From Panopea generosa (Eukaryota > Mollusca > Bivalvia > Adapedonta > Hiatellidae), in NCBI GenBank assembly GCA_029582155.1, contig CM055911.1, positions 23,513,514-23,577,513 of the forward strand: a stretch of DNA of 64,000 nt. Direction: 5' to 3'. A program made the translations under genes and the position numbers. Position 1 is the stretch's first letter. Each line of letters starts with the position of its first letter. Shown piece after piece: positions 194-47,800 of this stretch. The notes under the pieces were generated by a model. It saw nothing but the letters and a program-made list of their open reading frames with translations, had not been told where the DNA came from and searched no databases.

Positions 194-1368
194 TTATTCA
201 TTTTGAAGATGTGCAAGATATTTCATGTAACTCACACTGACCTGTACATTGTCTCTAGCATGTTCCCCTTCTGCCTGCATCTCTGCAAGTGCCCTCTCTT
301 GGTCTTCCTGTTGTTTCACCAGATCCCTCATCAGGTCATCATAACCGGGTAGATTCACATCCGGCACTGTTTCAATACCAACACCTTGTGCCTGGGCCTC
401 TGCACACTGCTTACGATACAGTTCCTTCTTTCTGTTCCGCCTTTCTTCCAGCAGTTTCTTACGCAGACTCTCCAACTGCTGATGCTTCTGCTTGTCAAAT
501 GCGTCATTCACACGCTGTAAGTTAACTGCATACTCGGCCATAATTCTGTCACGTTCTTTATCATTGTCAACTTTCTCTAATTTTTGTCTCAAGTCTTCTT
601 TGGCTTCGTCCATCATATTTCTCTTTTTCTTTTCAAACTCATCCAGGGTGTCTTGCATAGAATTCATTTCATTTGATTTTAAGTCATTTTCCAATTTGGC
701 AGCCTCGTAAGCTTGCCTCTCAAACAGTTTCCTTATCAAGTCCTTCCATGACGATCCAGATTTACCACCATCCTCTCCCATTTTTTCCCCTGCTGCAGAT
801 TTAAGCCTTTTCTTCTTGGAGTCTTTTTCTACAACAGCTGCTGTAGCTAGGACTTCTTTCTGTTTTTTAGTCCTGTCCCTGTTGGAGTCATCTTTTTCTC
901 TACCAGTTGACTCTCCAGGCTGGATACCAGTTGGATAACCGTCCTGTCCTCCAACATTGTAATTTTGTGTGTTGTGAACGTTTCCGCCGCCAGCAGCAGA
1001 ATTGATCATATTCAACAGTTCAGTGGATAAATAGAAAGGCCCGCCAGATTCCAACATCGCTATCAGTTGTTTCAGTAATGGCACTAATTCGGATTCTTTT
1101 GTCGAGGAAGACGCAGAATCTGCATCGCCGTACACACCTGTCAACTGAGCATCATAATCACCTGCCAGTAAAGAGCTATGTGTCAACACGACCTTCGCCT
1201 CCTGGCAGCAGAGTTCTGAGCGTTGTCGTGCATATTCGAGAGATGAATGAGCCTCGTCGAGATTTTCCATTCGAGAGATGACCTGATCCTGTAGGTCGGC
1301 AAGCAGACGAGTCTTGGCTTGACGATACCTCTGTATCAACACATTCTCACCATCAGGATTATTAGCCC
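194..1368 (-). CDS. Exon 28: terminal coding exon, coiled coils and stop
   Basis: Residues ~2159-2549: ANNPDGENVLIQRYRQAKTR, helices, a glycine/asparagine-rich low-complexity patch (SAAGGGNVHNTQNYNVGG), a basic patch (SKKKRLKSAAGEK, nuclear-localisation-like) and a long coiled coil (ERQAYEAAKLENDLKS, LRKKLLEERRNRKKELYRK), ending YLAHLQNE. Acceptor TTCCAG; stop TAA on 196-194. The frame enters in phase 1 as the splice requires, so no internal start is needed. Confidence 0.92.
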
Positions 1369-4300
1369 CTGGAAAAACATGTTGATTAATATTTATATTT
1401 TTTTAATAGGAAATAATGTAACAATATAGCAGAATGTAATGAAATACTAATGTGTAATAAAATATTACTATGTCATAACACACCAGAATTTAATAGAATA
1501 CCACAATGTATTTAAAAGCAGCAATTACTATAATACAAGTATGATATATTATATCAGAATGTAATAAAATGCTAGCATGTAATAAAACACCAGAATGTAA
1601 TAAAACACAAACATGTAATAAAAATACCAGAATGTAATTAAACACAATAATGTAATAAAACACTACAATGTTGTAAAATACCAGCATATAATAAAAAGCA
1701 GCAAGTAGTACAATATCAGCATGCAATAAAATACCAAAATATTATAAAATATCAGCATGTAATAAAATAACAAGCATGTAATAAACTATGAGAATGTAAT
1801 AAAATATCAGCATGTAATAAAAAAGCAGCAAGTAATACAATATCAGCATGTAATAAAAAGCAGCAAGTAGTACAATATCAACATGTAATAAAAAGCAGCA
1901 AGTAGTACAATACCAGCATGTAGTAAAATACCAAAATGTTATAAAATATCAGCATGTAATAACAATACCAGTATGTAATAAACTATGAGAATGTAATAAA
2001 ATACCAGCATGTAATAAAAAGCAGCAATTAGTATAATACAAGCATGTAATAAAAAGCAGCAAATAATAAATTACAGGTATGTAAGAAATACCTGTCATAT
2101 TGTCCATATTATCCTTAAACTTCTTCTCTTCCTGTTCAAGTTTGTTGAAGAATTTGCGTATTGTGTCGGCAAACCTCACATGAGTTGCTACATGTTTTTC
2201 TTCCATCTCGCACTCGCGCATATCACAGTCTGTAAGCACGGCAATAACCTCAGGTGGCAGCACTGCACTGTAATCATGTTCCGCTGCTCCACGTCTCTGC
2301 ACTTCACGCTTGCCTGCTTCCTCGAGCTCATTTGCACTGGCGTCGATCTGTGTTAAAGATTTCTGGACGGATTTCACCGTGACATTATCCATATCCTGTA
2401 GAAGGGTTAGAGCTAATTTGTGTTCCTCACTGGTCAGTTCTTCCTCCTTCTGTCTCTGTCTTCGCCAGAAACTTCTCCTCGTCAGGATTTCTTCCTCAAG
2501 CATGGCCATGGCACCAGGGGGCGGGGAACGTTTGCGGTGTGCTGCCGACGATAGTGTAACTGGAACAACAGTGTTGTTTTCTGGGTTGAGTCTTACACCA
2601 ATGACAGGACTTAGTTCACCAGTGATTGGGTCTATGGCCTTCTTACCAATGTTGATAGGGACGAGACCTGAAATAGTTACGTGATAAATAAAATTGAACA
2701 TTCATTGTCATTTATCATTATTAAATTGATCAAACTCAGCAAAAATGAACGCTCCAGTAATATCCTGTTGTTTTTAAACCATTCTTTAAAAAAAAAAACA
2801 ACACCATTGTATATGTTGTTGCAAATCTGAAAAAATACATATTTTGTTTGGAATAGCATTCTGCAAATATATAGATAAAATGTGACAAATGTTACTCGAT
2901 TTTAAATTTAAACTATTTTACACATGCAAAAACAAAAGTCACCAAAGACGAATGCAGGCTTTATTACAATATTTTCCTTTAACATGCTAAACCTCCCAAT
3001 CTGAATCTAACAATCTACTGAACTGCATGGTGCTAGTGATAAAGCATTGGGTACAGAATAGGAAGGTTGTAGGTTCAATCCCCCATCATGGCTATGAGTG
3101 GTGTTTCTTAAAGCAACACATCCACGTTTGAACTTTAAAAAAAAAAAAATTAATTGAGTTATGAGCACATTTCCCATACAAACATATGATCAATTAGCTG
3201 TATATGAGCATATAAACACAATCCCAAACAAAATGATGCCCAAATTATAATGCGTGACTAACACTTTATAAAACAAGCGTGTAACTCACCCGAGTCATAA
3301 AAAATTGTCAAAATGACTTTCAAGGCAGGTAAAGTACACTACGCACTAAAATGTGAAGTTTTTTAATAAGACTCGCATAATTCAATTTGAAGCCAAGTTG
3401 GAATCCTCGGCAATTTAAAAATAATTTATAAAGCGTTTGTCACGCTTTTTAATTTGGACATCTTTTTTTTATAATTCTAAAGCGTTCTGGATAGTGTTTG
3501 TTAGCAGATATACAGCTCACTGACCATATATTTATGTATGGGAAATGTGCTCACAACTCAATTGAAAAACTTTTTAAAAAAGTTTAAACGTGGATGTGTT
3601 GCTTTAAGCAAGACACTTTATCTGCATATGCTTATTACTAGTTCCATAAAACAAGAATTCCAGCATGACTTTTGTAAGTTATAAAAACAAGCTTTACAAC
3701 AGATGTGAAATGAAACAATTTAAAATCAAGTAGCGTCTGTATTTGTAACATTTGAAGGAAGATCCAGAAATGAACATGTGATCCTAGCTGTGCAAGCTAA
3801 ACATGCTCCAAAAGGTAAGTGAAAAAAACAAACAAACTTAAAACAAAAAAAAATCTACCATCCTCCAAGAAAAAAGATAGTAACATTACCATCTCCTTCA
3901 GGGTCTTCCATGGTTCCTCCCAGAGGGACTATCATGCCTGTTTCTCCATGCTTCGCGGCACCAAGAATGGGCACTTCCTGTCCAGACCCTGACCCATCCG
4001 ACATGTTGGTTCCCACCAGTATGGGCAACAGCTGTCCCGTTTTAAAGAACTCATACATTCCTGAAATTATATATTACAAGTTGGTTTCTTTAAAAAAGAA
4101 TCAAAAGGTGAGGTCAACAAGTTAGTGTGGTAAACCCAAGATTTGATCAGTGTACAATGTATTTGTAGGAATTGATAACATAAATGTTCCCCCCCCCACC
4201 CACCCCAAAAAAAAACAACAATGTATTAACCCATTGCTCCATAAGCATTGTCTTGGAACTCTTCCAAATTGAAAGCATTAATTCACCACTTATGAGCAAT

Positions 4301-7300: not shown

Positions 7301-10300
7301 GAATGCAGTACAACTTGAGGTTACTGAAATAAGAACATGCTATCTAACTTTTCCAGTATAAAAGGGACATAATTCTAACTATTATATATTCTTATTATAT
7401 CCCACTCTCCTCTGAGTTTTTTCTTTAATTTTCAAATAAATTCCTTGTGTTCTATGAGATGAGATTTAAGCTTCTAAATAAACAATTTAATCAAAATCGC
7501 TAAGTGAAAAAGGGGCAATAAATCTGCTTATAATAGAGTTACCCCCCTTGTGCCTATACTGTTAGTGGTAATGAGTTTGATTGATGTATAAGTAGTAGAT
7601 ATGCCGAAAAGTGTTTCCAATAGCTCCTTTTTTCTTCAAAAGTTGAGTTCAAAATGGTACATTCCAACCAAAAAACAATCATACCAAGTGTAAAATATAA
7701 TACAACATCTAAATAGGAAAGCCCGGCCTGATTAACTCAGTCAGCAGCACATCCGACTATCAATCTAGGGGTCGTGAGTTTGATTCCGAGCCTGGTTACA
7801 GTCTTGATGATGATTGATATACGACATTGCGTCACATTATCATAAGTCTCTGACCGCCAGTTCAAGTGGAAAAGTTATTAGTTATTTGTGGAGATGGGGA
7901 GTGTTTGAGTTCTGGTTAATCTTCCTGGATCCCAGGAAAAAGTGGTTAAGTTAACTGATTGTCTGTTAGCCCTCGATGGCATAAAAATGACTCTAATTAT
8001 TCAACAATCAATCAATTAAAAAAGAAAAAAAACGATTACAAAATTAAGCCACAAACCAGATTCTGGGTCCAAGGTTACTGCCAGGACAGGAACTGGAAGG
8101 GCTGAGTTGGGGTCCACCATCAATGACCCTAGTTCTATGGGTGTAGGCAGGCCTGTCACAATGTCAATATGAGTACCACCGATTGGTAAGACAGCCCCAG
8201 TCTGGGGATGAAGAGTCATAGCAAGTATGGGCACATGCAAGCTGGTTTCCGGGTCAGACATCGGGCCACCAAATTTAAGATCACTAGAATGTTGGAGGGG
8301 TTGGAGTTTTGTTTTGATTGGCTGTCCATTACGAGTCGGGTATGGTACAAACGGAATGAACGGATTCTCTGATTTCGAGGCTTCACCTGATAGGAAAAAA
8401 GAAAAAAGAAAAAAGTTAAATATACAAATATATATGAATTTTATGACAATAATGAAATTATAAAGACATTTTAGTTAAAGAGATCATACATGAAGGATTT
8501 TGTTTACCAGTTATATTAAAATTTTATCTCTTGTTACACAATACATGCAATCAGAGTTTGAAATTACATCGAGCTTGAATGATAACTATCCATTCTGAGA
8601 GAAATACTAGCAACATTGGTTCAATACCAGCTGTCATTTGTCATGCATTTTATATAATGCAATGTAGCGCCCAGTTTTCTAAACACTGAGATTGTATATG
8701 ATATATACATACAGTTTAGCTTAAATCATAAAATTGTCTTAAAATAAAAGTTTGCTTATCGTTAGCTATAGTTACAAGTTCTGGTACTTTGTGGTCTTAG
8801 AACACATTCAGTGTTGTGTGGAAGTAAGGTACTACTTATTTAATTATCAAGCTGGCGCAAGGGGGCGTGCAAATACAACACATCTTGGTATGCAAAAAAA
8901 AGAAGTATCATTTATGGCTTTTTCGGTTGGATAGAAAATCCCATCCCAAGGGATAATTGTTTTATGAACATGATCAAGTCACTGGGGAAAACAGTTGTCC
9001 CAAGAGACAGGATTTTCTATCCAAACTGAAAAAGTTATGAAATATTGTTCTTCTTGTTCTTCTTGTATACCAAACGCATTAATTTTATGTCTTTTAATTT
9101 TAGACGTCATGTAATAGGTTCCAATGTCACCGTGTGAGAATCTTATCTTGTCCTATGGGTGAGATAGAAATAATTAGCCCCAGTAAAAATACAGATCAAC
9201 TTGTCCAGTACGTCAGAATTGTTGCATATTTCAAAATTTCTCATGAACAGACTCAGTAAAACCAGGTCTGCTTATTTTTATTCCTAGGTTGTGTTCTCTG
9301 CTGCTAAGGAATCCATCTGTCAGATATACAGACTTATCTACAAACCTGCATTCTCTGCTGCTAAGGAATCCATCTGTCAGATATACAGACTTATCTACAA
9401 ACCTGCGTTCTGTGCTGCTAAGGAATCCATCTGTCAGATATATGGACTTATCTACAAACCTGCATTCTGTGCTACTAAGGAATCCATCTGTCAGATATAC
9501 GGACCTATCTACAAACCTGCATTCTGTGCTGCTAAGGAATCCACCTATAAGATATACGGACCTATCTACAAACCTGCGTTCTCTGCTGCTAAGGAATCCA
9601 TCTGTCAGATATACGGACTTATCTACAAACCTGCATTCTGTGCTGCTAAGGAATTCATGTCAGATATACGGACTTATCTACAAACCTGCGTTCTGTGCTG
9701 CTAAGGACTCCATCTGTCAGATATACGGACTTATCTACAAACCTTAGTTCTGTGCTGCTAAGGACTCCATCTATCAGATATATGGACTTATCTACAAGCC
9801 TGCGTTCTCTGCTGCTAAGGAACCATCTATCAGATATATGGACTTATCTACAAACCTGCGTTCTGTGCTGCTAAGGATCCATCTATCAGATATACGGACT
9901 TATCTACAAACCTGCATTCTGTGCTGCTAAGGATCCATCTATCAGATATACGGACTTATCTACAAACCTTAGTTCTGTGCTGCTAAGGATCCATCTATCA
10001 GATATACGGACTTATCTACAAACCTGCGTTCTCTGCTGCTAAGGATCCATCTATCAGATATACAGACTTATCTACAAACCTGCGTTCTCTGCTGCTAGGG
10101 ATCCATCTATCAGATATACGGACTTATCTACAAACCTTAGTTCTGTGCTGCTAAGGATCCATCTATCGGACATACGGACTTATCTACAAACCTGCGTTCT
10201 GTGCTGCTAAGGAATCCATTTATCAGATATACGGACTTATCTACAAACCTGTGTTCTGTGCTGCTAAGGATCCATCTATCAGATATAGGAACTTATCTAC

Positions 10301-11795
10301 AAACCTGTGTTCTGTGCTGCTAAGGATCCATCTGTCAGATATACGGACTTATCTACAAACCTGCGTTCTGTGCTGCTAAGGATCCATCTATCAGATATAC
10401 GGACCTATCTACAAACCTGCGTTCTCTGCTGCTAAGGAATCCACTTATCAGATATACGGACTTATCTACAAACCTGCGTTCTCTGCTGCTAAGGATCCAT
10501 CTATCAGATATACGGAGCACTTATCTACAAACCTGCGTTCTGTGCTGCTAAGGAATCCACCTATCAGATATACGGACCTATCTACAAACCTGCGTTCTGT
10601 GCTGCTAAGGAATCCATCTATCAGATATACGGACTTATCTACAAACCTGTGTTCTGTGCTGCTAAGGAATCCATTTATCAGATATATGGACTTATCTACA
10701 AACCTGCATTCTGTGCTGCTAAGGAATCCATCTATCAGATATACGGACTTATCTACAAACCTGTGTTCTGTGCTGCTAAGGAGTCATCTATCAGATATAT
10801 GGACTTATCTACAAACCTGTTGCTGAATCCACAACAAACACGAGCCTCGACTGCAGTGGATCAAATGCCACGTTGCCTTGTATGGGAAGAACATTGCCGG
10901 TCTGTGGGTGTATGAAGTTACTGGCAGGGACTGGCACGACCTTGCCATCAGAAAGTAACATCTGGGTGCCACTGCGTGCTTTCATTAGACCAGTGACTTT
11001 GTCAGTTTCAACTAGGCTCGAAGATTTTCCTACAATTTATAAATGCTTTATAATAAAGCGACACATGGCAAATTTTCATCAACTATCCCTTAATACTATT
11101 TATACTAATTATATTATCCACATGACATATACAAAATGACAATGTCCAGAAAGGGTTTCATCAACTGTTCACAGATTACCTTTAACAGTGGCCCAGATAA
11201 GGGGATGATTTTGGGAGTATTTTACCCTCATGGTTTTGGTAAGTACCCCAATGTTTTCATAATTGGAGGTAACTTTACCCCTTACCTTAAAAAGTAGTTG
11301 TTGTTGTTGTATGGTGTTTAGCGTCGCTTTCAACAATTGTTCAGTCATATCGCGACGGTGTCTACTTGAGACAGTATTCTAAGCGCTGCCACACTGGAGT
11401 ATCATGCCGCAGACACATGGTATGATACCCAACCCAGTCACATTATACTGACACCGGGCTGACCAGACCTAGAACTCTCCTCTAAATGCTGAGCGTCGAG
11501 CGAGGAAGCTTCTAGTACCATTTTTAAAGTCTTTGGTATGACCCGGCCGGGGATTGAACCCATGACCTTCCGCATGCGAATTGGACGCTCTACCACTAGA
11601 CCACGCCGCGGTCCTTAAAAAGTAGAGGTTAAGTTACTCCTCTCAAACAAAATTTCTATACTGAAATATGAAAAACTTTGTTTAGAATGTATGACTTTAT
11701 ATCTTATAGACCTTTGTAAATTATTAAACCTAAATAATATTATGTATGTACTGCGCACCCTCTTATTTTCATGCTGCACCAACCCTTTTTATTTT

Positions 11796-11848
<53 letters not shown>

Positions 11849-17800: not shown

Positions 17801-20800
17801 TGTTCTGTTGCATAACCGTGATATACTGAAAAAGTAATATGATAAACAAGCAATGTCACTGTTAAGTGTCACATGCCCCCCAACATGTCATGATGTAATT
17901 TTGATCATTTGTAGCAAGTATCATTAAAATTCATCTATGCATGACAAAGTTACAGGCCAGAAACAAAATCTCACATAAACTCAAAGTGTTGCAAGTATCA
18001 ACAAAATCCATCTATGCATGACAAAGTTACAGGCCGGAAACGAAATACCTGACGGAAGGACGGACATTCTCACGAATGGGTATTTAAGAGGCTTCTTTGC
18101 GTCAATCTTATTACTTGTGTGGCTAGATTTTAGATAATTTTAGCCACGTAAGAGAAAAAAAGCCACATAAATGCTGTTTTTAAGTGGCTAGAAACAGCCA
18201 CTTAATTATTTTTCAACTGCTTTTCAACTGTCCATAAAAATTACTAACCCTAAACCCTAGACACTTATCTACCTATTTGTTTGCCCGGACGGACGGAAGG
18301 ACGGATGGATGGACGGAAGTTCTCACGAATGGGTATTTAAGTGGCTTCTTTGTGTCAATCTTATTACTTGTGTGGCTTAATTTTAGATAATTTTAGCCAC
18401 GTAAGAGAAAAAAAGCAACATAAATGCTGTTTTTAAGTGGCTAGAAACAGCCACGTAATTATTTTTCAACTGCTTTTCAACTGTCCATAAAAATTACTAA
18501 CCCTAAACCCTAGACACTTAACTACCCATTTGTTTGCCCGGACAGATGGACAGATGGACGGACGGACGCTGCGATTACTATATGCCACCCAAAATATTTT
18601 GGGGGGGGGGGGGGCATAAAAAGCTAAAACAATCTTTAATATATTTTAATTTATTTTAATCTATTTGAGCTAGATTTTGAAGTTAACCCTTTACTCCATA
18701 GATACACGTTTTCCCACACCAATCACAGATAAACAAAAGCCTTCTATATTAGTGGTATCAAAAGGCATCTATATTAGAGGTGTCCAAAGGCATCTTTATG
18801 AAGTGAAGGGTAAACTCAGAGCTTGTATGAAACGTTCTCAAACCCTCTTCCTGGGCAGAATAATAAAGTCTCTCTTTTTGAGAGGCTTATTAGTCAAGTT
18901 GGGGATCAAACCAGCAACCTGTAGCGCGAGTGGCCAACAATCACTACCACCCTCTCTTTGGATACTTGAAACCTGGACAGTATTGGTTTTACCAAGAAAC
19001 TTTTATTGGTTTTACCAAGAAACCTTGAGCAAGTCACATAAACTATGAGCGAACTTCGCAATCAATTCAGCTAAAATAAATTATACATTGTAAATTATAA
19101 CATATATATATATAAAGGGAGATAATTAAATTCACAATAACAACATATATATATAGAGATAATTATTTGTGACTAACCAAGACATAAACTATAAATGTAC
19201 AGACCAGACTACGATGAATGTGCCTAGCTACAATGCAATCAATAGACACAATATCAAGGCCTCTGCCAAACCAATAAATTTGGTGCCGACCTTGACTTAT
19301 ATACTATGGATTTACATGCAACACATCTGGACTGGACGGACAATTTACATATATGAACTGATAACTTTATATGAGTAGGATTCACTTAAGAATTCATGAC
19401 TTCTCACATGCTATACAAAAGACAGATTTAGAAACTTGGTGGATCATGAAGATACAATGAAATCAAATGTATTTTATTTTAATGGGGTTTAACATTATTT
19501 TCAAGCTTATATATGGCATATTCAGTTTTATTGGTGAAGGAAGACCTCAGAAGGAATCCCAGTAGACCCACCTTCCTTTTGGAAAGTTTCCGCAAGTAAC
19601 TGGCAAAATTATGCACATAAAGGTTTTGGACAGAGTGAGACTCAAAAATTATATAATTTCTAGTCTTGAAATTGATTTTGGTAAAAAATATAATATAATG
19701 TTAAATCAATTCAAAATATTCATTTACTGTGTTTGGTATGCAATAGAATCATAGAAAATTCTATCCCTTAGGGTAACTTTATGAATGACATTGTCTCGTC
19801 CCCACCAAAACAGTCTTGGGAAAGAATTAACCATCTGAATCTCAAATTACTTACCATCTTTTTGTACTGATTTGCGCTCGAGTAGAATACATAAGTGCCA
19901 GGGTCATTGAACTGGTACGAGAAGAGGGTGGTCGATGTGCTGGACTGAGCCTGGGCTTCTGCCAGAAGTCGGAACCCACCATAGTCAAATGCAGCGTTGG
20001 TGTTGAAGAGGTTATTTCTGAAATATATTTCAATGAATTTTTAATCGATCGTGTTACCATACTTTACCATGCAGTTTGCAGTGATGGTGATTAGATGACA
20101 AAACAATACTAGTACTGAAAAAATAAAATAGATTTAATAAACAAACAAACAAGAAATGTCACTGGTAAGTGTCGCATGCCCCCCAAATGGTCTGTGTAAA
20201 TAACAATATATTCTATAATAATAGTTTACATTGTATCCATGAATATCAAGAGTCATGGACTGACTTTTCAGAATAAGACACACAATTTCATTTTTTATTT
20301 ACATTAAAGTGTGACTTTGACCTTTGTATAACTTTGACCTTGACATCTGATGTAATGGTCTGGGTATTTCTACAGGTAAATGCAGGAGACACATCATCAT
20401 GATATGTTGCTCACTTGTGTCAAGCTATTTTAAAATCCTTCCATGTCAAACAAAGTTACAGATCAGACATCAAACAAATTGAAAGTGTGACCTTGACCTT
20501 TGAGGTAAGATTTTGGGTATTACATGCGACACTTCATCATGTCATGTTGATCAACTGAGCCAAGTGTTTTTGAAATTTATCCATAGGTGAAAAAGTTACA
20601 AACCGGACACAAAATCTCAAACAAACTGAAATTGTCGTCAAACAATGTTAAAATTGTGACCTTGACCTTTGAAGTCGGAGTCTTGGTTTATGCGCGACAT
20701 GTCGCCATGTTATGCTTATCATTTGTAGCAAGTGTTTATAAAATCCATCTATGTATGACAATGTTACAGGCCGGACACGAAATCTCACACAGACTCAAAG

Positions 20801-23800: not shown

Positions 23801-26800
23801 GCTGTCTCAAGATCACTTACTTCTCACTGTTAAGATCACAAGTCCGAGTCTGGCTTGTTCAAAAAAACTTATGTGAAAAAGTTTGTAAGTTTTTTGCAGG
23901 AAGGAAGGTGGTTCTACTCAAGATTCATTCTGAGGTCTTCCTCAACCAATAAAACTGGAAATGCCATAATAATATAACCTGAAATGAGTTGAAAATAGCA
24001 TTAAAACAACATCTTTTCCATTTTGGGGATAAGTCGCTCTCTTTTTTGAGCAGAAACTATCAGATAAATCTCACACAGCAACAAATTTTGCTCTGTTCAA
24101 CATATAGAGAAATGCACTTCTGGAAGACTGAACATATTGCCAATGGTTCTAAAATGTCTTGTTTCCATGTTTAGTCCTCTGCTGGTCCAACTATGCAAGA
24201 CAAAAAACATGGGGTTGGCCTGACTATTTTCTCATAACTTCGGTGGTTCATATTGAACAATTCTGCCAACTTTTTTCCAGTGTATCAACATGCATCTTCA
24301 AACTATTATCTTCATCCAACAGTATCCATTGCCATCCAAACTTAATAGAGCTCATGAAAATGTTCCAATGTTCTCATATGTACATAGAAATATGACCATT
24401 ATAATCATTCAGACATAAATAATGCCCAACTGCTTGACCCTTTACTTCATAAAGACGCCTTTGGACACCTCTAATATTGAAAGCATTAATTCACCACATA
24501 TCAGCAATGGATGAATTATGATTATATTAACTGACAGAGTGGAAAACAGTGCAGGAAGTGTTCAGATTGCTCGTCACGAGCAATCTGAACTCTTCCTGCA
24601 CTGTTTTCAAAGGCCTTCTGTGATTGGTGCGGGAAAACACGTAACTATGGAGTAAAGGGTTAACACAGCTCTTAATTTCTCAGGCACAAGAATCGCGAAG
24701 ACAAAATGTCTTTTAAGTCATTACATTGCCAATTTTGCTTCAAGCGCCCATTCCATTATAACTAAATTTTAAATAATGCACTGATAAAAATAAGGACCAA
24801 AATAGAGAAAGATAGGAAACTTGCATCTCCTGACAAAATGTTGAAGAAATAGCATGTGAAGAATTATGACTGTCAACTTAACCATTCATATTTCACAGGC
24901 AACTGATTTCATCCAAATAAACTAAATTAATGGACCCAAAATCAACAATGACATGACCAATAAGACTACATACTCGGATACTCCCCAGCAAGTTTGGTGA
25001 AAATCTGTTAAGGAATTTGACAGTAGAGCTGACAATTAAGTGGGTTTTTTTGTGTGTATTTCTTAAAAGGGTTTAACGCCATATCAACACATTTCAGGCT
25101 ATATATGGCATTTCCAGTTTTATTGGTGGAGGAAGACCTAAAAATGAATCTGAGTTGAATTCAGCTGTCCTTCCACAACTAACTGGCAAACTTCTCACAT
25201 CCGTTTTTTTGATCAAGCGTGACTCAAACTGACGACCTAAGTGGTGAGAGGAAAGTGATCTTGAGATGACATCATAGACCACTTGGCCTTGGAGGATCAT
25301 CGAATAAACTGCGACAGACATACCAGTGTGTGGGGTGCTAAACAACAGGGGCATGAAAATTCCACAGAACTCGGAAAAACGACTGATTCCACCGATTAGC
25401 TGAGTCAGCAGCATATCTTACTATCGATCCAGGGGTAGTGAGTTCGAATCCACACCAAGCAACAGTATCTGTGATGACTGATATTTTGTCTCATTATCAT
25501 TTGCCTCTCACCGCTGATTCAATTGAGAAAGTAACATGCAGAGATAGGGTGTGCTCGCGTACTAGTTAACATTTAAGGATCCTGGGGGAAAAAAGTAGTT
25601 AGGTTAACTGATTGTCTGTTGGCCCTCAATGGCATAAAAATGATGCCAAATATATAATCAATCAATCAAACAAACTTGTATGTTTAAAAATGATTTTACT
25701 AGTATTTTCAAAATCAGCGTGACACTAGTTCTATGAAAACTGTCATGAATTTCTTTAACTACAAAGTTTCAGGTATTATACTTAAAAATTAATATATGGG
25801 TCTACACTTTCATAAAAGGGGTAAATATTTATTTGATTTGAGGATTAAAATTTGTGCTTCATGAACATTAAACTAAAGTGGAGCACATGGTCTAGTGGTA
25901 GCGCACAGAACTCATGATCGGAGAGTCGTGGGTTTGATTCTTCTTCACAGCTATATGTGGTGTCCTTGATCAAGACACTTTTCCACATATGCTTAGTACT
26001 GGTTCTACCCAGGAAGACTCTGTTTAAGTTGTTTCACAATTGAAGTAAAATAAATAAGTTTAAACCATTAAACTAGCTGAATGTTTTTTTATATTAAAAA
26101 GCAGATGACACGCATTGAATTGTAAAGCCAATGTCATCACTGAACAGCGACGTTGTCAACACATTGAATGATTTCACGCAAACATCACATCAAACTCGTG
26201 ACGTGATGGTGAACCAGCAATATAAGATCATTCCACCAATGAAATGAAAACTGGTCCTATTTAGCTTTTTTAGGTTTGTCCAGCTGCAAACATTTTTCAT
26301 TGGGAAATGAAATGCTTATTTTGTCCATATAGTTCATTTAGACTGACTGCAACTGAAAATGGAAGTATATAATTATGAATGTGAATAAATAAATTTCAAC
26401 CTTATAAGTCATTTCAATTATTATCAGCATAAAATACATCTCACCTGAGAATTACCATTTCCATCTGAGATTTCCAGGTAAGGCTCTAGCGGGGGTTCAG
26501 CACACACAAACTGTATTATCTCTATCTGGGCTTTGCGACACTCAAGGTTGCACAAAAACTCCAAATCATCCACGCTACAGAGACAAACACCCAAAGTTTC
26601 ATCTACACCAACAAATTCCCCAGAGTCACACACCTGTATAATAAATTACAACAGTAAATTTCCCAGGGTCACACATCTGTAAAATAGATTACAACTGTCA
26701 ATTTACCAGTGTCACACACTGGTATAATAAAATTTTATTGCATTAGTAAATTCCCTAGGCCACACATTGTGCATAATAAATTACATTTCTTCTTGATTGA

Positions 26801-29800: not shown

Positions 29801-32800
29801 AATTGGAAATAGCAAAATTTGTGGCTGCTTAACAGAGGTGGCCACTTACACAGTTTTACTGTATAATATTGAATGACCGTGCACAACATTAAACCAGCCA
29901 AATCACATCTTCTCCAAGTGCCCATCATAGATTGAGATACAATTCATGCGTCTTTTCACACATCTGTCTTGCGAGTCTTTATACTATACTTCCTTGAATT
30001 GTGTAACAATGTGACGAGTTTGAAGCTGAAGGTCATGTAGAAATGGCTGGTTAAATGTTCAGCATTGACATCACTGAACTGCTTCAGGTAGCCATTGTTT
30101 TCTAGCGATGTTGCTACCAACCCGTATTGGATATCTATACAAACTTTGGCAAATTGCATAGAGGAAATATTACTTTGTATGGCAATATTATTTGAATTCA
30201 TGTGCTAAATTAAATGTTAAAAATATTACAGAATTAATGTCCATGTATTCTGCATAAAAACTTTGTCTTAAAACACGAGTGATTGATTGACTGATTGATG
30301 TTTATTCAGGTTAAAACAAACATATACAAATGACATTAAATATACATACCCAATTACAAATAAAATGAAGAAAAATTAGTAAATGGTAATTATAGAACTA
30401 TCAACCATACTATATAAAAATTAAGTATTGCAATCTCATTATCTCAATATTGGAGGGACTACCAAAAAAACTCGAGATATCCGAATATCGATATAGATTT
30501 TATCTCAAGATCAATATTTATTTTCATCACATGCTAATTGTACTTTCACTTTTATATTACGATCAGTGCATTAGAATTACACTGTCGTGATAAATGCTGA
30601 TATCCGGGTCATTCTTTGAATTTCTTGGCAGTGTGAGATATAAGTTGAGGCTGGTTGATAAATCAAATGATATTTAAACAATTTACATGTAATCACCCAA
30701 TTCAATGACACGATGTGTGCAACATTCTGTCTGTCATTAAAACTGACACCTTTGCCGTTTACTGGTAATTAGTGTCGCGTCTTAAACAAACTGTGAAAAA
30801 TTGCATGCGCAGATTTTCACAAGGCTTGGAAAAACACACAATATTAGGTCAACAATAATTATATCGAGACAAACATTCCATTAAAGGTATGAAATGATCA
30901 ATTGTGAACTGAGACTGGGATCGAGATATTCGAAATATCAGACAATATCGAGTAAAAAGGATTTTATTTACATACACAAAGAAGGGGAAAAGTTGGGGAT
31001 GGAAAAAAATATCGACACTTCGGGAATTTCGACTCAACTGATATTGAGATAATGAGTTTCAACTGAATTCAATATCACTGAATGCAATTTTAATTAAATA
31101 TTAATGTTTTGGCAGAATCCAATGTAAAACAATTATTGGTCTATCAAAATAAAATATACCATAGAAACTATGGTTACTTAAATGAAATGAGTGGAAAATC
31201 TCAAGAAGTATTGAATTGATGCAACATTGGGCATACATAATCAAAAGTGTGAAATAACCTTGGATTGCCCATAAAGCCTGAAAGCTTATTTCCATGTTAC
31301 ATGTATTATACTTACTAGAGTGCGCAGTATTTAGTTATTATAATTTATACAAATCACCCTCAAATTCTTCCTGTGCAGAACCAGTACTAAGCATATGCAG
31401 AAAAATGTTTTGCTCTAGGACACTACATATAGCCATCAAAGCCACGACCCTCCAATCATGGGGCTGTTGCTCTACCACTGGACCTCACACTTTAACCATT
31501 TACTTCATATAGATGACATTGGACACCTCTAATATAGACGCCTTTGGACACCTTATATAGAACGCTTTTGAATTATTGGGTGAATTATGTTTATATTAAC
31601 TGACAGAGTGGAAAACAGTGCAATCTGAACTCTTCCTGCACTGTTTTCAAAGCCTTCTGTGATTGGTGCGGGAAAACGCATATCTATGGAGTAAAGGGTT
31701 AACTTTCCAGGTGGACGGAGGTATGATCTGGTTCCATTCACACCACACATAGCCATCAAAGCCACGACCCTCCAATCATGGGGCTGTTGCTCTACCACTG
31801 GACCTCACACTTTAACTTACCAGGTGGACAGAGGTATGATAACCTACCAGTTGGACAGAGGTATGATAACTTACCAGGTGGACAGAGGTATGATAACTTA
31901 CCAGGTGGACAGAGGTATGATAACTTACCAGTTTGACAGAGGTATGATAACTTACCAGGTGGACAGAGGTATGATAACTTAACAGGTGGACAGAGGTATG
32001 ATAACTTACCAGATGGACAGAGGTATGATAACTTACCAGGTGGACAGAGGTATGATCTGGTTCCATTCACACCACACATAGCCATCAAAGCCACGACCCC
32101 CCAATCATGGGGCTGTTGCTCTACCACTGGACCTCACACTTTAACTTACCAGGTGGACAGAGGTATGATAACTTACCAGTTGGACAGAGGTATGATAACT
32201 TACCAGGTGGACAGAGGTATGATAACTTACCAGTTGGACAGAGGTATGATAACTTAACAGATGGACATAGGTATGATAAATTACCAGGTGGACTGAGGTA
32301 TGATAACCTACCAGGTGGACAGAGGTATGGTAACTTACCAGTTGGACAGAGGTATGATAACTTACCAGGTGGACAGAGGTATGATAACCTACCAGGTGGA
32401 CAGAGGTATGATAACTTACCAGGTGGACAGAGGTATGATAACCTACCAGGTGGACAGAGGTATGATAACCTACCAGGTGGACAGAGGTATGATAACCTAC
32501 CAGGTGGACAGAGGTATGGTAACTTACCAGTTGAACAGAGGTATGATAACTTACCAGGTGGACAGAGGTATGATAACTTACCGGATGGACAGAGGTATGA
32601 TAACTTACCAGGTGGACAGAGGTATGATCTGGTTCCATTCACACCAAATATAGCAGCTTCTGAGCTAGTGTTAGTAACTGGGTTGTCTGTTGTTGCCTGA
32701 GAAAGACAGACAACTCCTGCGCGACAAGGGAGGCAACCACTGCCATCTGAAGCACTATACTTTCCCGCACGACATGGTTCGCATGTATCATCGAAAGAAC

Positions 32801-35800
32801 TGCGGTTGGCACCGATCATTTCTCCGAAACCAGGGGGACATTGGACTGGTTCTATAGCTCCTGTAAAAAGTCATAATATTACCTATAAAGTAAGGATATC
32901 TCCAATAATCCACCACACCATACTATCTCAAATTTTACACTAGGTAATGATATATCAAATTTTACACCCGGTCACATTATCTCCAATAATACACAAGGTA
33001 ATAATATCTCCAAATAAATACAAGGTCATAAATCTCCTATAATACACCAGGTAATTATATCTCCAATAACACACCAGGTAATAATGTGTCCAATAACGCA
33101 CCAGGTAATAAAATCTCAAATTATACACCAGGTAATGATATTTCCAATAATACATCAGGTAATAATATCTCCAATAATACATCAGGTAATAATATCTCCA
33201 ATAATATACCATGTCATATTATCTCCAATAATACACAAGCTTATAATATTTCCAATAATACACCAGGTAACACTATCTCCAATAATACACCAGGTAATTA
33301 TATCTCTTATAATACACCAGGTAATACTATCTCCAATAATATATCAGGTAATTATATCTCCAATAATACATAATGTAATTATGTCTCCAATAATACATGT
33401 ACATCTGGTAATTATATGTCTAATAATACACCTTGATATGAAGTATTATTGTAATATCTGATAATTATTGGTTACAACATGATCTTAACAGTATTACTTA
33501 CAGCTTTATTTTCCAGCTAATTAAGCCTTAAAATAAATTCCCAATTTCCCCTCAACCATGCTGGTTTTTTCCACAACCTTGAAGGCCTGGGCCTCTTCCT
33601 TATTTCTAGAAAAAAGGCTCTGTAATGTGGTTCTGTCTTTATCTTGGTCTGATTCTTTGGATCAGAGGAACCACGTTATATCAAGACGCAAGTGAACTTG
33701 ATACCAACATTTTAAGGCTCTGAGTTTGTTTTTAAAATAGGGTTTAAAGCAATTTTAACCACATTTTAGGTTTTATAAATTTTAATGGCCTATCCTGTTT
33801 TACTGGTGGAGGAAGACCACAGAATGAATCTGAGTAGAATTACTGTCCTTCTGCAAATAACTGGCAAACTTTCTGACATTATGTTTTATTTTGAGCGATT
33901 GAGACTCAAACCTACGACCTAAGACCATGGAAGACCCCTAAATTCAATAGTAGATGAGTACGAATGTAAGACTCTTTTTATAACATAACTCAGGTTATTG
34001 GTACATTTACCATTTATTTTTCAGATCACCTCTATAAAGAATGAGGAAAATTGCACAATATTATATTATGTATGACATAATGTATGAAATGATGTCATTT
34101 TATATCAAATCGGCATCATTTATAAGTTTGGACAAGTTGGAAAGTACTTCAGCATTTTACGCAAGAGAACTGAGTGATAATCTGCTTGGTTAATATCAAA
34201 AATATGTCAGGTTTATTACACCATAATTTATGTGATAAAACTTTTTATTATACAAGTGATATGAGGGATGATTGAGGAAATATGATTTAACCCTTTATTT
34301 CATATGGACACCTTTCAACACCTCTAATGAAGATACCTAACGAGCAATCAGAACAGGTTATGCACTGTTTTCTACTCTATCAGAATAGATATGTAAAATG
34401 TTTCTATTCATGGAAATTGACTATGTGTGGCTTTTGAGTTTGGAAGAGTCCAGTTAAAATGCATATGGAGTAAAGAGTTAATGGAAATTGTCAACCACAA
34501 ATTAATATGATAACTGACCTGCATCTGTACAGTTGCACGTGTCGAAAAAGTTTCCTGTGCAGTAATGACCTGATGGACATTTGGTGGGGTCAGTAGAGTT
34601 CTCTGGACAGTAGAATGCAGGCGGACATGAGATTTGCGACTCTGAGTTGTTGCAATAGTATCCTGAAAAAAAGAGTCATAATTCAATCAATCAACAAATA
34701 TGGTAGAGGGCTATCAGACATAATTTTGTAAAGGTATGCCAGTAGAAAAGTCAATGTAATTTCTTACTGGCTTTGATGTTGATCTATTTCTCATTCCTGG
34801 AGCAATTTCCTTGGCTGAGGAAGTAGGTCAACATCTACTGACGGTCGTTGACATTCTATGTTAAACTATGCCCCTGCTTTGAAACTACATTGTAGATATC
34901 AATTAAGCCAAATATCAAGTTTCATCAAAATCGATCCATCAATAAAGATTTTAGAGGTTGGAAACGGTCAGCTAATCAGAGTCCAGATCATCTAATTAAT
35001 ATGCACCAATTCCATCTATTGTCGAACTTGACCTGGGTCTTGTTGATATAAAGCCAAATATAAGTTTTCATCAAAATTAGTTCATAAATAAAGACTTTAG
35101 AGGTCGGAAACTATCACCCAATCATAGCCCAGAACACGTAACTAAATCAAACTGGAGCTGTAGTTTATCACTATACATCTTTTTACAAAATATGAATCAA
35201 ATCCATTCAATCCTTCAAGAGATATCGAGCGAAAACAAATTTCTTGACATTAGTCAATAATCTTTGTCCAAAAAGGGGCGTAACTCTATTAAAAATCATC
35301 AGACCGGAACGAAATATGAACTTGAGCTGTATTACTTGAATGTGAAGTCACACACCAAAATTAGTTTAAATCTGTTCATTAAAACTAAACATATCAGTCA
35401 GAAACCATTTACGTACGTACGGGACGTACGTACAGACAGTAAAGATACTATACACCACCCACTGAAAATGGCGGGGGCATAACTATGGCATTCTATTTTG
35501 AAAATTCTGGGTGATTTTATTGGCTGAGAAAGTAGGACTGTAAACATCTAAGTTTCAACTCATGAGTAAATAATGGTTTAAAATAAGATGACAAGCAATA
35601 AAAAAAAAAAAAAATGCACACAGCTTTTCACTCTTAATTTTGTCTTCGAATTTCCCCAAAATATTTAGTTTGTACATATTTATATTAGCACGATTGTGAA
35701 GAAAAACTCAGTTATATGAACGACTCGACAGAACCATTCCTGGGTAGAACCAGTACTGAGAGTTGTTTATGAGAGGCATAGATTGAGCTGGGGATCCAAC

Positions 35801-38800: not shown

Positions 38801-41800
38801 ATTTTGGAGAGAAAAAATCAATTTAAACCTTTATTTGTTGTCTTTTAATGTTATAATAATATAGCACCATATGTAAGTATCTAAAATATGTAATTTTCTG
38901 TAGAAAAGAAATCTGTAAACTCTGAGAAAAAATACAATTTGTTTTGTTGCCTATATATTCTGTTTCTTATTGTGATTCACTGTTTATCACTAAAATCAAT
39001 AAGAACAATGATTTATTTATTTTATGCCATCAAGGACTAACAGACAATCAGTAAACCTAGAGATGAATGATAATGAGACACAATGTGGTATATCAACTAT
39101 CATGGAGACTGTTGCCAGGCAGAGATTCAAACTCAACACCCCAGGATTGATAGTCAGACGCACTAAAGACTGAGCTAACCGGGCCCAATAAGAACAAAGA
39201 ACAACATTGTGTACTAAAAATTAAACATTATTGTATCTATTTATATATCTATATATGATTATCATACAAAACTATTACTTATGTCAGTTGAAATTGAATA
39301 AACGTATTGTCATGTACATGTATGGGAGAATGAAAATAAAACAACTGTCTTCCATTGCCTGGTGGTTGAAGCATCTGCCTTGAAAGCGGGAGGTTGATTG
39401 CTTGAATCTCGGTCTAATCACTTTTTCTCTGATGCGACCGGTTGCCCAACCAGCAGCTAGTTAAATTGAGGGGTACCAAATGTCTAACAGCGGTATGCCT
39501 TGCAAGGTAGCTTTCAGAAAGTAACTGTGTCCAACAAAGGTGTATCTGGTAAGCCCATTATGGCTGGCCCTATCAATAGGGACGACACTTTAATAGACAA
39601 ACACTTCTAATAAAACACTTCTACATACCAGCTGTGCAATCCGAGCAGTCAGTGTAGTTTTCAAGATTGAGTGTCGCCGAGTCCGTATAGGTACCGTTCA
39701 GACAGAGAACTGGTGATGCGGAACCTTCCGGACAGTACGAATACGCTGGACAGTCTATAGGCGTAGTTGTATTCTGAAGACAATATTTGCCTTTGGGGCA
39801 GGTCAGGCAGCTGATCTCCCCTTGATTTGGTTGGTACGTCCCCGGGTCACAAGCTACTGGGTCGGCAGAAACTGCAGGACAATAGAATCCAGATGGACAA
39901 AGATAGGCAGCAGGCATTGGATCTTCTATGTCTGCAGATGATGGGCAGTAGTAGCGCTCGGCACATTCGCCGGCAGGCTGTATCGCAGCAAGACTGTTAC
40001 AGTATTTCCCTCCAGTACATGGATAGCAGTCTGCAACACTTGTGCCATGGGTCTCATTTCTCATTGTTCCTCTGGGGCACTGTACTGCGGCAGTTGTACC
40101 TGGAAGATCATGGAATATGTTGAACAATTGGAAACAGAAGTAGTTCTTGAAGTATACAAATATCATGGAATATACTGAACTAACAGAAATAGTAGAAAGT
40201 AGTTCTTGAAATATACAAATATCGTGGAATATGTCGAACTAACGGAAATAGTAGAAAGTAGTACTTGAAATATACAAATATCATGGAATATGTCGAACTA
40301 ACGGAAATAGTAGAAAGTAGTTCTTGAAATATACAAATATCGTGGAATATGTCGAACTAACGGAAATAGTAGAAAGTAGTTCTTGAAATATACAAATATC
40401 GTGGAATATGTCGAACTAACGGAAATAGTAGAAAGTAGTTCTTGAAATATACAAATATCGTGGAATATGTCGAACTAACGGAAATAGTTGAAAGTAGTTC
40501 TTGAAATATACAAATATCGTGGAATATGTCGAACTAACGGAAATAGTTGAAAGTAGTTCTTGAAATATACAAATATCGTGGAATATGTCGAACTAACGGA
40601 AATAGTTGAAAGTAGTTCTTCAAATATACAAATATCATGGAATATGTTGAACTAACAGAAATAGTAGAAAGTAGTTCTTGAAATATACAAATATCATTGA
40701 ATATGTTGAACTAACAGAAATAGTAGAAAGTAGTTCTTGAAATATACAAATATCGTGGAATATGTTGAACTAACAGAAATAGTAGAAAGTAGTTCTTGAA
40801 ATATACAAATATCATTGAATATGTTGAACTAACAGAAATAGTAGAAAGTAGTTCTTGAAATATACAAATATCATGGAATACGTTTAACTGATGGAAATAG
40901 TAGAAAGTAGTTCTTGAAGTACATGTATACAAATATCATGGACTAACGGAAATTGTATAAAGTAATTCTTGAAGTACACAAATATCATGGAATATGTTGA
41001 ACTAACGGAAATAGTAGCAATTAGTTCTTGAAATATACAAAGATCATGGAATATGTTGAACTAACGGAAATAGTACAAAGTAGTTCTTGAAGTATACAAA
41101 TATCTTAGAATAAGTTGAACTAAAGGAAATAGTAGAAAGTAGCTCTTTAAAATATACAAAGATCATGGAATATGTTGAACAATTGGAAATAGTACAAAGT
41201 AGTTCTTGAAGTATACAAATATCTTGGAAAATGTTGAACTAAAGGAAATAGTAGAAAGTAGTTCTTGAAATATACAAAATCATGGAATATGTTGAACAAT
41301 TGGAAGTAGTAGAAAGTAGTTCTATATATATGTATATATTAGATGGCTGCATTTATCACAAAAACATAAATGCCCCACCCCCAACCCCAATTACAAGTCA
41401 TCGCCCCAAGTTAAAAGCTTATGGGATTTTAAAGAGTAAGCACATACTGTGATAGACCAACAGGCAAACAGATAGAGACGTATTATTTGAAGGTCAGGGG
41501 TAACACTTAATGCCGTTCCACCAATCTTAAAATGGCGAGCATGAAAAAGTTAATATTACTCAAAATATTTGTGTGTTTTAAGTGAACAAGATCAATCTTT
41601 TACTGAAAAATAATATCTGTGCTCTTCTATTACCGCAGTAATATAAAACCTGTAGAAATTAACTTGATTTACAATATTTTAACTAAAACCCATCTATAAA
41701 TTACTGCATTATTTTTTTTTTTAACATGTAGTCAAAGGTAATTAATAAGAACAATGGTATTGTTTTATTTTACATATATGCACATACAAAAAATCTCAAA

Positions 41801-44800: not shown

Positions 44801-47800
44801 AAGTTTCATAAAATTCAAACATGGGGTTATAGAGAAATAGTGCAGACAAGAATTTGGTCACAGACAGAATCAAAGGGCCCTAACTCCATGAAAAATCATT
44901 GAATTAGAACACAACGATAATATGCGCATCTGCACTTGGTAATGATGCATCCTAGCAAGTTTCATAAAATTTCAGCCTGAGGTTGTAGAGAAATAGCGTG
45001 TACAAGAATTTGGTCACAGATTCAATTAAAGGGCCATAACTCCATAAAAAATCATCGAACCGTAACACAAAGACAATATACACATCTCCACTTGGTAGTG
45101 ATGCATCATAGCTAGTTTCATAAAATTCAAACATGGGGTTGTAGAGAAATAGCGCGGACAAGAATTTGGTCACAGACAGAATCAAAGGGCCATAACTCTG
45201 TGAAAAATCATCAAACCACAACACACAGACAATATGCCAATCTCCACTTGGTAGTGATGCATCCTAGTAAGTTTCATGAAATTCCAACATGAGGTTGTAG
45301 AGAAATAGCGCAGACAAGGATTTGTTCAGACAGAATCAGAGGGTCATAACTCCATGAAACATCATCGAACCGAAACACAAAGACAATCTGCGTATTTCCA
45401 CTTGGAAGTGATGCATCCTAGCAAGTTTCATAAAATTCCAACCAGAGGTTGTAGAGAAATATCCCGGACAAGAACTTGGAGATGCACACACGGATGCACA
45501 CACGAAGCGATGACTATATGCTTCCCTCCTTTGGTGGAGCAGAAACACACCCTAAACAAGCAACCAAATCATAAAATTAACATTTTTTGTTGAGAATTAA
45601 AAAAAGCACCCTAAACAAGTAACCACAATACTATAAAATAACATTTTTTGCTGAGAAATTAAAAACAAGAAGGCCAAGATGGCCCTATGTCGCTCACCTG
45701 ACTCACCTTGAGTCACCCAACTTAAGTAGATTATATAATACATGTACACTCAAAATTCCAGAAAAACGAGATGGGCAAGTAGTTAGAATTTTGATTTGTT
45801 TTGAAGATGTAACAGATATGTAGAAGAGTTCAAATTTGGTAGTGGTTCACCCATTGTAAATGTCAGTGAAACTACATCAAAATCAGGTCAGTAGATTCTG
45901 ATAAGAAGGCTTTTGAAGTTTTTACTATAGCTGCCTTTATAGTAAACTAACACCTCACTGCAGTGGTCATGCTTTTTAACAAATCACAACAGCTTGAACA
46001 AACTTGGTTAAGGGTCACCCTAGGAACATTTTTGCGAAATTATTTTAAAATTGATCAGGTGGTTTCTGACAAGAAGTTTTTACTATAGCTTATATAGTAA
46101 ACTAACCCCATCCCCTGGCCGCCATGTTTTTGATGAACCACTACAATTTGAACAAACTTGGTGAGGGTTCTTCCAAGGAACATTTCTGAGAAATTATTTA
46201 AAAATCTAGCCGGTAGCTTCTGACAAGAAGATTTTTTAAATTTTACTTATTAAACTTGCCCCTCCCCCTGGCAGCCATGGTTTTTGAGGAATCAAGATGG
46301 CTTGAACAAACTTGGTAGATGGTCACCCAAGGAACATTTCTGTGAAGTTATATCAAAACTGGCCCAGTGGTTTCAGAGAAGTTGTTAGAAGCTAAATGTT
46401 AATGACAGACGACAGACACCAGGTGATAACAAAAGCTCACCTGTGAGCCTTTGGCTCAGGTGAGCATAAATCACCTCAAACAAGTAACCAAACTAAATTC
46501 AAACTAAACATTTTTTGCTGAGAAATTGGAATGTTTATCTTTCTCAATGTTGATTTTTTTAAGATCTTACCTGTGGGACATGGTTCCCCGTTGTCATCTG
46601 TACCATTCAGACAGTAGAACCCTGCAGGGCATGGTAGTGTTGCATTCATACCTAGGTCTGGACATGAGGTACCAGCCTCACACACGTCACATGCAACTGT
46701 CAATGGAAAAGGTCAAAGTAGATGCACAATGCCATGGAAAAGGTCAAAAGTAGATGCACTGTGAATACCATGGGAAACATCAAGTAGATACACAATACTG
46801 CAGAAAAGGTCAAAGTATATGCACAATGGAATGGAAAATGTCAAAGTAGATGCACAATGGAATGGAAAATGTCAAAGTAAATGCACAATGGAATGAAAAA
46901 TGTCAAAGTAGATGCACAATACCATAAAAAAGGCAAAAGTAGATGCACAATACCATAAAAAAGGCAAAAGTAGATGCACAATACCAAGAAGAAGGCAAAG
47001 TAGATGCACAATACCATGGACAAGATCAAAGTATATAATACAATAATACAATACCAATCATATTTTCCTTTTTTTATGCAATTTGAATACAATTTTCAAC
47101 ACATCACAGGTTGTATAATAATGGCATCAAGTTTTACTGGTGGATGAAGACCATAGAATGAATTTGAGTAGAACCACTATCCTTCCGCAATCTGAACTCC
47201 ATGAGCTCAGTTAGTAGCGCGTCTATCAAAACTGGGGTCTTGAGTTTAAATTACAATCTGGCCACAGTCTCCATGTTGACTGATATATGATATTTGTGTC
47301 TCATTATCATTCTCCTCTAACCGCTTATTCAGTTTAGAAAGTTATCAGCTACTTCCAGGATCCCAGGACAGAGTGGTTATTATATATATAATAAGGTCAA
47401 CTGATCATCTGTTGGCCCCTTATGGCAAATAAATGATGATAAATATTCAAATAAACAATACCAATCACACTTTCTTTTTTTAATGCAGTTTAAAGGCAAT
47501 TTTCAACACATTATAGATTTTATATAGCATCTAGTTTTTGGTGGAGGAAGACCACAGAGTAACTGGCAAACTTTCCTACAGAAAGTGTTTGGACCGCAGA
47601 GAGCCATTGTCCTTTTGCAAGTAACTGGCAAACTTTCCTACTGAAAGTGTTTTGACCACAGAGAGCCACTGTCCTTTTGCAAGTAACTGGCAAAATTTCT
47701 TACAGAAAGTGTTTGGACCACAGAGAGCCATTGTCCTTTTGCAAGTAACTGGCAAACTTTCTATCAGAAAGTGTTTGAACCACAGAGTCATTGTCATTTT

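Follow-up and report, generated by a model that had tools for sequence, protein, structure and literature searches.

A minisatellite carrying copies of the exon 11 5' splice site in a cysteine-rich protein gene of Panopea generosa

The DNA analysed here, referred to as the window, is a stretch of 64,000 nucleotides of the Panopea generosa genome (contig CM055911.1, our C18, positions 23513514-23577513; the genome searched comprised 1.47 Gb in 39 contigs). Its minus strand carries the exons of a gene for a cysteine-rich protein, 17 of which were positioned from 63,192 to 19,855 by means of phase-matched splice sites, the start of exon 17 not being found. Exon 11 (32860-32609, minus strand, as all the exons, arrays and copies given below; 252 nt, phase 1 on entry and exit) codes for cysteine-rich (CPxG) repeats, lies between the acceptor TTTTTACAG/GAGC and the donor CTG/GTAAGT (the slash marks the splice junction) and is continuous in frame with exons 10 and 12. 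As the initial annotation had proposed, it ends in ...SYLCPPG/GTAAGT, with the G of the first, canonical 5' splice site at 32608 and its T at 32607. Joining this donor to exon 12 (29701-29478, 224 nt), the acceptor partner for all the donors discussed here, gives ...SYLCPPG/YYCPEGS....

The donor lies within the first unit of a minisatellite, array 1 (32142..32627), made up of 18 head-to-tail copies of the unit TCATACCTCTGTCCACCTGGTAAGTTA (the original and the 17 further copies already noticed in the initial annotation), each of exactly 27 bp and without any indel. Unit 1 begins within exon 11, of which it covers the final 19 nt, and is divided by the exon edge into TCATACCTCTGTCCACCTG/GTAAGTTA. 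G/GT is kept in 17 of the 18 units (11 GTAAGT, five GTAGGT and one GTAATT) and is destroyed in unit 14 (TTAAGT). The claim that almost every later unit retains GGTAAG or GGTAGG in phase 1 was borne out for 15 of the 17 (ten and five, respectively), the remaining two being GGTAAT in unit 13 and the dead GTTAAG in unit 14; all the donors of the array are in phase 1. Use of successive donors would give an exon 11 of 252, 279 and so on up to 711 nt, with nine residues added per step, and the frame does stay open, as had been stated, through all the units until an in-frame TAG (32123-32121) closes the read-through. Each unit other than the Cys-less one would contribute one cysteine, and any donor would leave a CxxG-type end (SxxG for unit 13) ahead of the YYC of exon 12. 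The 11-mer CTGGTAAGTTA occurs 17 times in the window (ten times in array 1 and seven in a second array described below), against 0.04 occurrences expected from shuffles. The open frame of array 1 is in itself weak evidence, because the consensus unit is free of stops in four of the six frames. Likewise, the resemblance between the CPPG of the unit and the surrounding cysteine repeats, to which attention had been drawn, is expected of a unit copied from the end of the exon. Splicing within the array, joining a unit's donor to an AG in a unit further on, was considered as an in-frame mechanism and rejected: the AGs are in phase 0 (GTAAG/) or 2 (GTAG/) and the donors in phase 1, and because of this difference the products would be out of frame.

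Further into the intron, and beyond what had been annotated, there are a second and a third copy of this region. A copied exon-11 tail (GGTGTGAATGGAACCAGA, 32056..32073) heads the second block and is followed by array 2 (32055-31813), nine units of the 27-bp repeat located 86 bp past array 1, with G/GT in eight of the nine. Copy 3 (31744-31700) comprises an exon tail and one decayed unit (31726-31700) whose donor is dead (GGAAAG). All the array-2 units lie beyond the TAG, the distance from this stop to the junction being 84-300 nt for all nine donors (eight of them intact). Such a stop-to-junction layout would normally trigger nonsense-mediated decay. Each block has as its spacer the head of a dispersed element that we take to be similar to a short interspersed nuclear element (SINE-like; its tRNA likeness was judged by eye), copy 1 of which lies between the arrays (32133-32074, borders approximate). 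In the genome search, 40 of 40 scored candidates matched the element, its own locus included, the others with 79-83% identity (2,527 candidates at first look), and no tRNA gene was found in the head by ARAGORN. Copies 1 and 2 of the spacer head are identical at 71 of 72 bases, and because they differ by this one base the block duplication is, on this measure, young. Both arrays share a P>S change in the second unit and a P>T change in the next-to-last unit; because these changes are common to both, some of the 27-bp growth probably came before the block duplication. Array 2 was also considered as a cassette exon and rejected, no acceptor with a fair pyrimidine tract being seen in front of it (by eye, unscored).

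In the reading that we favour with moderate confidence, a minisatellite has taken in a 5' splice site, the first donor dominates and the later ones leak in frame. At the start, an old SINE-like element would have lain a few bases past the donor. A 27-bp stretch (19 nt from the end of exon 11 plus the adjoining 8 nt of intron 11) would have been duplicated in tandem across the exon edge, the array of units would have grown, to 18 units in array 1, and a larger block (exon tail, array and SINE-like head) would have been duplicated into the intron, with more growth afterwards. Array growth would have been harmless to the reading frame and tolerated, because 27 bp is divisible by three and the unit has no stop in the frame of the gene. 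The first donor would serve most transcripts and a minority would leak to the later donors of array 1, with nine additional in-frame residues per unit, while the donors of array 2, if used, would yield transcripts with a premature stop. We take array 1 as an ordinary minisatellite over a real donor, the length of its unit being apparently a multiple of three by chance.

Three lines of evidence, namely the junction in the relatives of this domain, a 57-bp array in the same gene and the human ABCA7 gene, point to the first donor in our analysis. In the related domains (10 non-self matches), CxxG is followed directly by xYC, without inserted units, in all six aligned loci; four of these are located upstream on the same contig and two on contig C13, where the CxxG-xYC stretch of the locus L043 lies within a single 400-codon open frame. 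The unextended junction is likely to be the ancestral form, because all six aligned relatives join CxxG directly to xYC, with the caveat that nearly any array-1 donor restores CxxG-xYC at its end. The related domains found upstream on the same strand extend up to C18:23710137, about 133 kb beyond the window, and may belong to the same gene as exon 11. No retrocopy that would reveal the splicing was detected in the genome search, where the exon-11 DNA matched its own locus only, among the best candidates scored.

The 57-bp array (9293..10819) starts at donor 10816 of an exon ending at 10817 and holds 26 copies of NAG/GTTTGT. Only the first of these 26 donors would be productive, because read-through hits a stop at codon 3, and this argues that the spliceosome can hold to the first of 26 donors, if the exon is expressed and the gene works.

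The third line comes from a variable number of tandem repeats (VNTR) in intron 18 of human ABCA7, whose 25-bp unit includes the exon-18 donor and is present in 12 to about 427 copies (PMC5954066; this and the other papers cited are represented here by excerpts). As at our locus, a minisatellite flanks an exon and takes in its donor, and in ABCA7 the first GT serves as the canonical donor, with low-level use of the next: one-unit retention was 2 +/- 1%, independently of repeat length, and exon-19 skipping was length-dependent (PMC5954066). Unit 1 of array 1 similarly holds the exon's own donor (32608) and the later units carry donor copies, with G/GT in 16 of the 17. The 25-bp unit of ABCA7 shifts the frame (PMC5954066), whereas the 27-bp unit stays open for 17 further units; moreover, the unit of array 1 takes in 19 exonic nt, and behind a stop there is a second array. 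Alleles and isoforms were measured in ABCA7 (PMC5954066), whereas array 1 is known from the sequence of a single assembly.

Several points weigh against a dominant first donor with low leakage. The 2% reported for ABCA7 was obtained after nonsense-mediated decay, the frameshifted product class having risen substantially under cycloheximide (PMC5954066), and for this reason the real use of the later donor there is higher; by our comparison, the figure concerns a decay-prone product, and decay would not lower an in-frame product to the same extent. The 57-bp array serves as a control on the assumption that its exon is expressed. When donor strength was estimated with a simple score (a position matrix; acceptors were scored by their pyrimidine fractions), 10 of the 17 later donors equalled or exceeded the first, nine at 7.0 and one at 7.3. 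Of two competing donors, the intron-proximal one is described as favoured by SRSF1 and the intron-distal one by hnRNP A1; because these preferences are opposite, either end of array 1 could win. Finally, a local-fold calculation placed the last donor at about the same exposure as the first.

The same calculation bears on a further explanation, which we regard as quite improbable, according to which the last donor (32149) or both end donors are used, the array being constitutively coding (+153 residues) and the inner donors hidden by folding of the repeats. Predicted accessibility was 0.008-0.021 for the first and last donors, above most of the inner ones (0.0000-0.008), and about 0.1 for the dead unit 14. 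With 18 consensus units and two settings, the first-minus-inner difference was reached by 3/120 and 1/120 shuffles and the last-minus-inner difference by 3/120 and 8/120; the reported ability of SRSF1 to activate intron-proximal sites also agrees with this explanation. The masking of the inner donors, with the first and last more exposed, is only suggestive in these predicted folds, and its likely cause in the model is that GGTA pairs with the TACC of an adjacent unit. However, the accessibility of the inner donors was not unusual, being reached by 14/120 and 9/120 shuffles in the two settings; unit 2 was as exposed as the first donor in the second setting, and the exposure of the first donor was average within the gene (rank 14 and 16 of 28). 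Furthermore, an exon of 711 nt would exceed the 15 others among exons 1 to 16 (126-499 nt), although two exons towards the C-terminus also seem to be long (2667-2092, 576 nt, and another from 1368, possibly more than 1,000 nt), and the insert is absent from the aligned relatives.

Selection on the units was considered from their substitutions. Both arrays together contain 11 distinct changes, nine nonsynonymous and two synonymous, the 81 possible single changes in the unit being 53 nonsynonymous, 20 synonymous and eight to a stop; the chance of zero stops among 11 changes is 0.43. Four of the 11 fall in the donor 9-mer, which makes up 9 of the 27 columns, the cysteine is lost in one unit, and each array has one dead donor. 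No conservation of the unit peptide or of the donor beyond the neutral expectation was seen in these 11 events, a number that gives low power, and the changes look neutral, with no visible regard to codon or donor. The proposal that later donors add KLSYLCPPG-like peptides survives in part: n x 9 residues would be added in frame by every later donor except that of unit 14, whereas array 1 as a used or selected isoform system is not supported, the changes being neutral-looking.

An isoform ladder, in which several donors would be substantially used, either stochastically or under regulation, and the repeat number would set the mean length of a Cys-rich insert, seems rather unlikely to us. It accords with the presence of GTAAGT or GTAGGT in 16 of the 18 units in one phase, with a frame open across a 711-nt exon in which nearly any donor gives a CxxG-type end before YYC, with the in-frame ladder that the UBC gene yields from tandem splice sites (PMC10809524), and with the decay-prone nature of the +1-unit product of ABCA7, whose class went up under cycloheximide, so that donor use exceeded 2% (PMC5954066). 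The neutral-looking changes and the unit without a cysteine speak against it, as do the ABCA7 excerpts, which give only the +1-unit extension, at about 2% and independent of length (PMC5954066), and the counter-selection of in-frame tandem sites (3, 6 or 9 nt) reported for human genes, which is stronger in ordered regions (PMC2423196). We consider unlikely a repeat-tunable ladder in which many of the 17 live donors would be used to include 0-17 KLSYLCPPG-like units, with array 2 as a nonsense-mediated sink and allele length setting both the isoform mix and the dose.

The location of array 2 suggests yet another possibility, which we hold to be very improbable, that the locus works as a negative control: array-2 donors and intron retention would produce stop-containing transcripts, expression falling with copy number, or array length would raise exon-12 skipping. 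The stop ahead of all nine array-2 junctions is in keeping with it, skipping of exon 12 (224 nt) would be out of frame, and in ABCA7 exon-19 skipping increased with VNTR length, which was also associated with lower expression (PMC5954066). Against this, the array-2 donors are more than 550 nt past the first donor and no exon signal of their own was seen.

Arrays are also found at other junctions of this gene. A diverged 18-bp array (1416..2092) starts at donor 2091 of another exon, and its read-through is open for 47 codons, with further donor-like sites at 2004 and 1968. A 43-bp array of about three copies (26613..26731) spans the exon 14 acceptor (26634), its upstream acceptors being out of frame and accompanied by stops. 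A 59-bp array (40107-41323) stops 7 bp before the exon 7 acceptor and has its own TTTCCGTTAG in the unit, and a 31-bp array (46703-47033), the unit of which holds the pyrimidine-rich stretch preceding the acceptor, stops 6 bp before that of exon 5. In intron 10, an array whose period is also 27 bp (32896-33430) stops 35 bp short of exon 11, which thus has 27-bp arrays on either side; the unit sequences of the two differ.

Altogether, six junctions are inside arrays or at most 7 bp from them (donors 2091, 10816 and 32608; acceptors 26634, 40100 and 46697). The association was evaluated with hand-placed junctions (28 donors and 24 acceptors, several C-terminal acceptors being unplaced) and with 68 repeat rows condensed by hand to 40 (nested rows dropped, some merged) and then merged. 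Array edges were at most 8 bp from a junction in 4 of 52 cases, against 0.5-1.0 expected (reached by 0.2-1.5% of 64,000 circular shifts), at most 3 bp in two, against 0.2-0.4 (1.7-5.7% of the shifts), and at most 20 bp in five, against 1.2-2.3 (0.9-7.5%), these ranges reflecting the score cut-off and the thresholds having been chosen after looking. Only 3-4 of the 52 junctions were inside arrays, against 14-15 expected, so that junctions overall avoid arrays. That minisatellites nucleate at splice sites by a special process was not accepted as proven, given the post-hoc thresholds and the share of tandem repeats in the window (27-30%, by score cut-off); the edge excess, nominally significant, is no proof of nucleation, because selection stopping arrays at exon borders gives the same pattern.

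Genome-wide, GGTAAGT-bearing triplets showed no enrichment (5,874, compared with 5,898 for the reversed motif). Triplets of CAGGTAAGT gave 323 matches against 156, a twofold excess, which came down to 20 against 12 distinct arrays on contigs C1-C6 (hand count, among the matches listed), and the single motif already differed (16,114 against 12,171). Donor-bearing arrays are common in this genome and their enrichment is not clear. All eight distinct GGTAAGT arrays on C1, among the 30 loci fetched, had no more than 41 open codons ahead of their first exact GGTAAGT and no long exon, in a sample that is small against thousands of matches and in which diverged units continue upstream in at least three loci (L009, L017 and L033). 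On C3 (39989337-39989723, minus strand), units of 34-36 bp each resemble a complete miniature intron (CAG/GTAAGT, a pyrimidine tract and GCAG) plus a few bases.

As regards the protein, a Pfam search of protein 1 placed PF07699 (Ephrin_rec_like, GCC2/GCC3-like) below its curated cut-off (17.7 against 23.1 bits), and searches of four other stretches (194-1402, 1949-2701, 8016-8474 and 13733-14194) gave no match at E 0.01; a search of solved structures returned weak Ephrin-receptor and mastigoneme-like matches, the best with E 0.02-0.04. A single transmembrane segment is likely at about 17.64-17.71 kb (by eye), before a presumed cytoplasmic part (194-17855, minus strand) with repeats resembling DPxTGxxxPI. 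Copy 3 of the exon-11 block carries an inserted element (31496..31698, minus strand) with TTAA on both sides and inverted ends of about 14 bp, which we take to be like a miniature inverted-repeat transposable element (MITE-like); its terminal motif has 11 matches in the window (at most three mismatches). Other short elements with inverted ends, many of them flanked by TTAA and MITE-like, are located for instance at 18683-18814, 24434-24663, 34287-34481 and 56790-57008.

Each component of the exon 11 array is already known: minisatellites including a donor from ABCA7, in-frame ladders from UBC and repeats at exon borders from human paralogues (PMC2812944). The UBC polyubiquitin gene resembles array 1 in having in-frame tandem units, each with a splice site, from which a ladder of products is possible (PMC10809524), and here, too, the unit is a multiple of three (27 bp) and the frame is open; in array 1, however, donors alone are repeated, AGGT is missing from 13 of the 18 units and a single distant exon supplies the acceptor. 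The dual-specific site of UBC, with an AGGT core in each unit, was not found in array 1, whose junctions read CTGGT or CCGGT; AGGT occurs only in the five GTAGGT units, its AG being in another phase than the donor. Internal tandem repeats of human paralogues likewise show minisatellite growth at an exon edge that alters the exon or intron and gives alternative transcripts, although they concern intron gain in recent segmental duplicates and not one donor array in one gene (PMC2812944). Tandem donors (GYNGYN and short steps; PMC2423196, PMC2279118) share close competing donors and small in-frame additions, with two (nearly) overlapping sites as opposed to 18 sites 27 nt apart arising through repeat growth. 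In intron gain by tandem duplication of AGGT (PMC3443670, PMC2891723), a splice-site motif is also multiplied, but the new 5' and 3' sites make an intron, whereas array 1 multiplies a donor that already existed, without requiring a new intron. What is new is that these features are combined: donors alone are repeated, the frame is kept across 17 further units, and a second, duplicated array lies past a stop; no report of an in-frame donor array of this kind was found among the top-ranked matches in the open-licence literature, subscription papers being mostly outside it.

Array 1 is a natural experiment on the choice of the spliceosome among many near-identical 5' splice sites that are spaced by 27 nt and share one acceptor. 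This choice would be readable from coding transcripts, because all the array-1 products are in frame, whereas the extended product of ABCA7 is frameshifted and exposed to decay. The same gene offers a control, the 57-bp array in which the first donor alone would be productive, together with a second array trapped behind a stop. If the later donors were left unused, this would indicate a strong preference for the first donor in exon definition; if they were used above trace levels, repeat number would directly set protein length via splicing.

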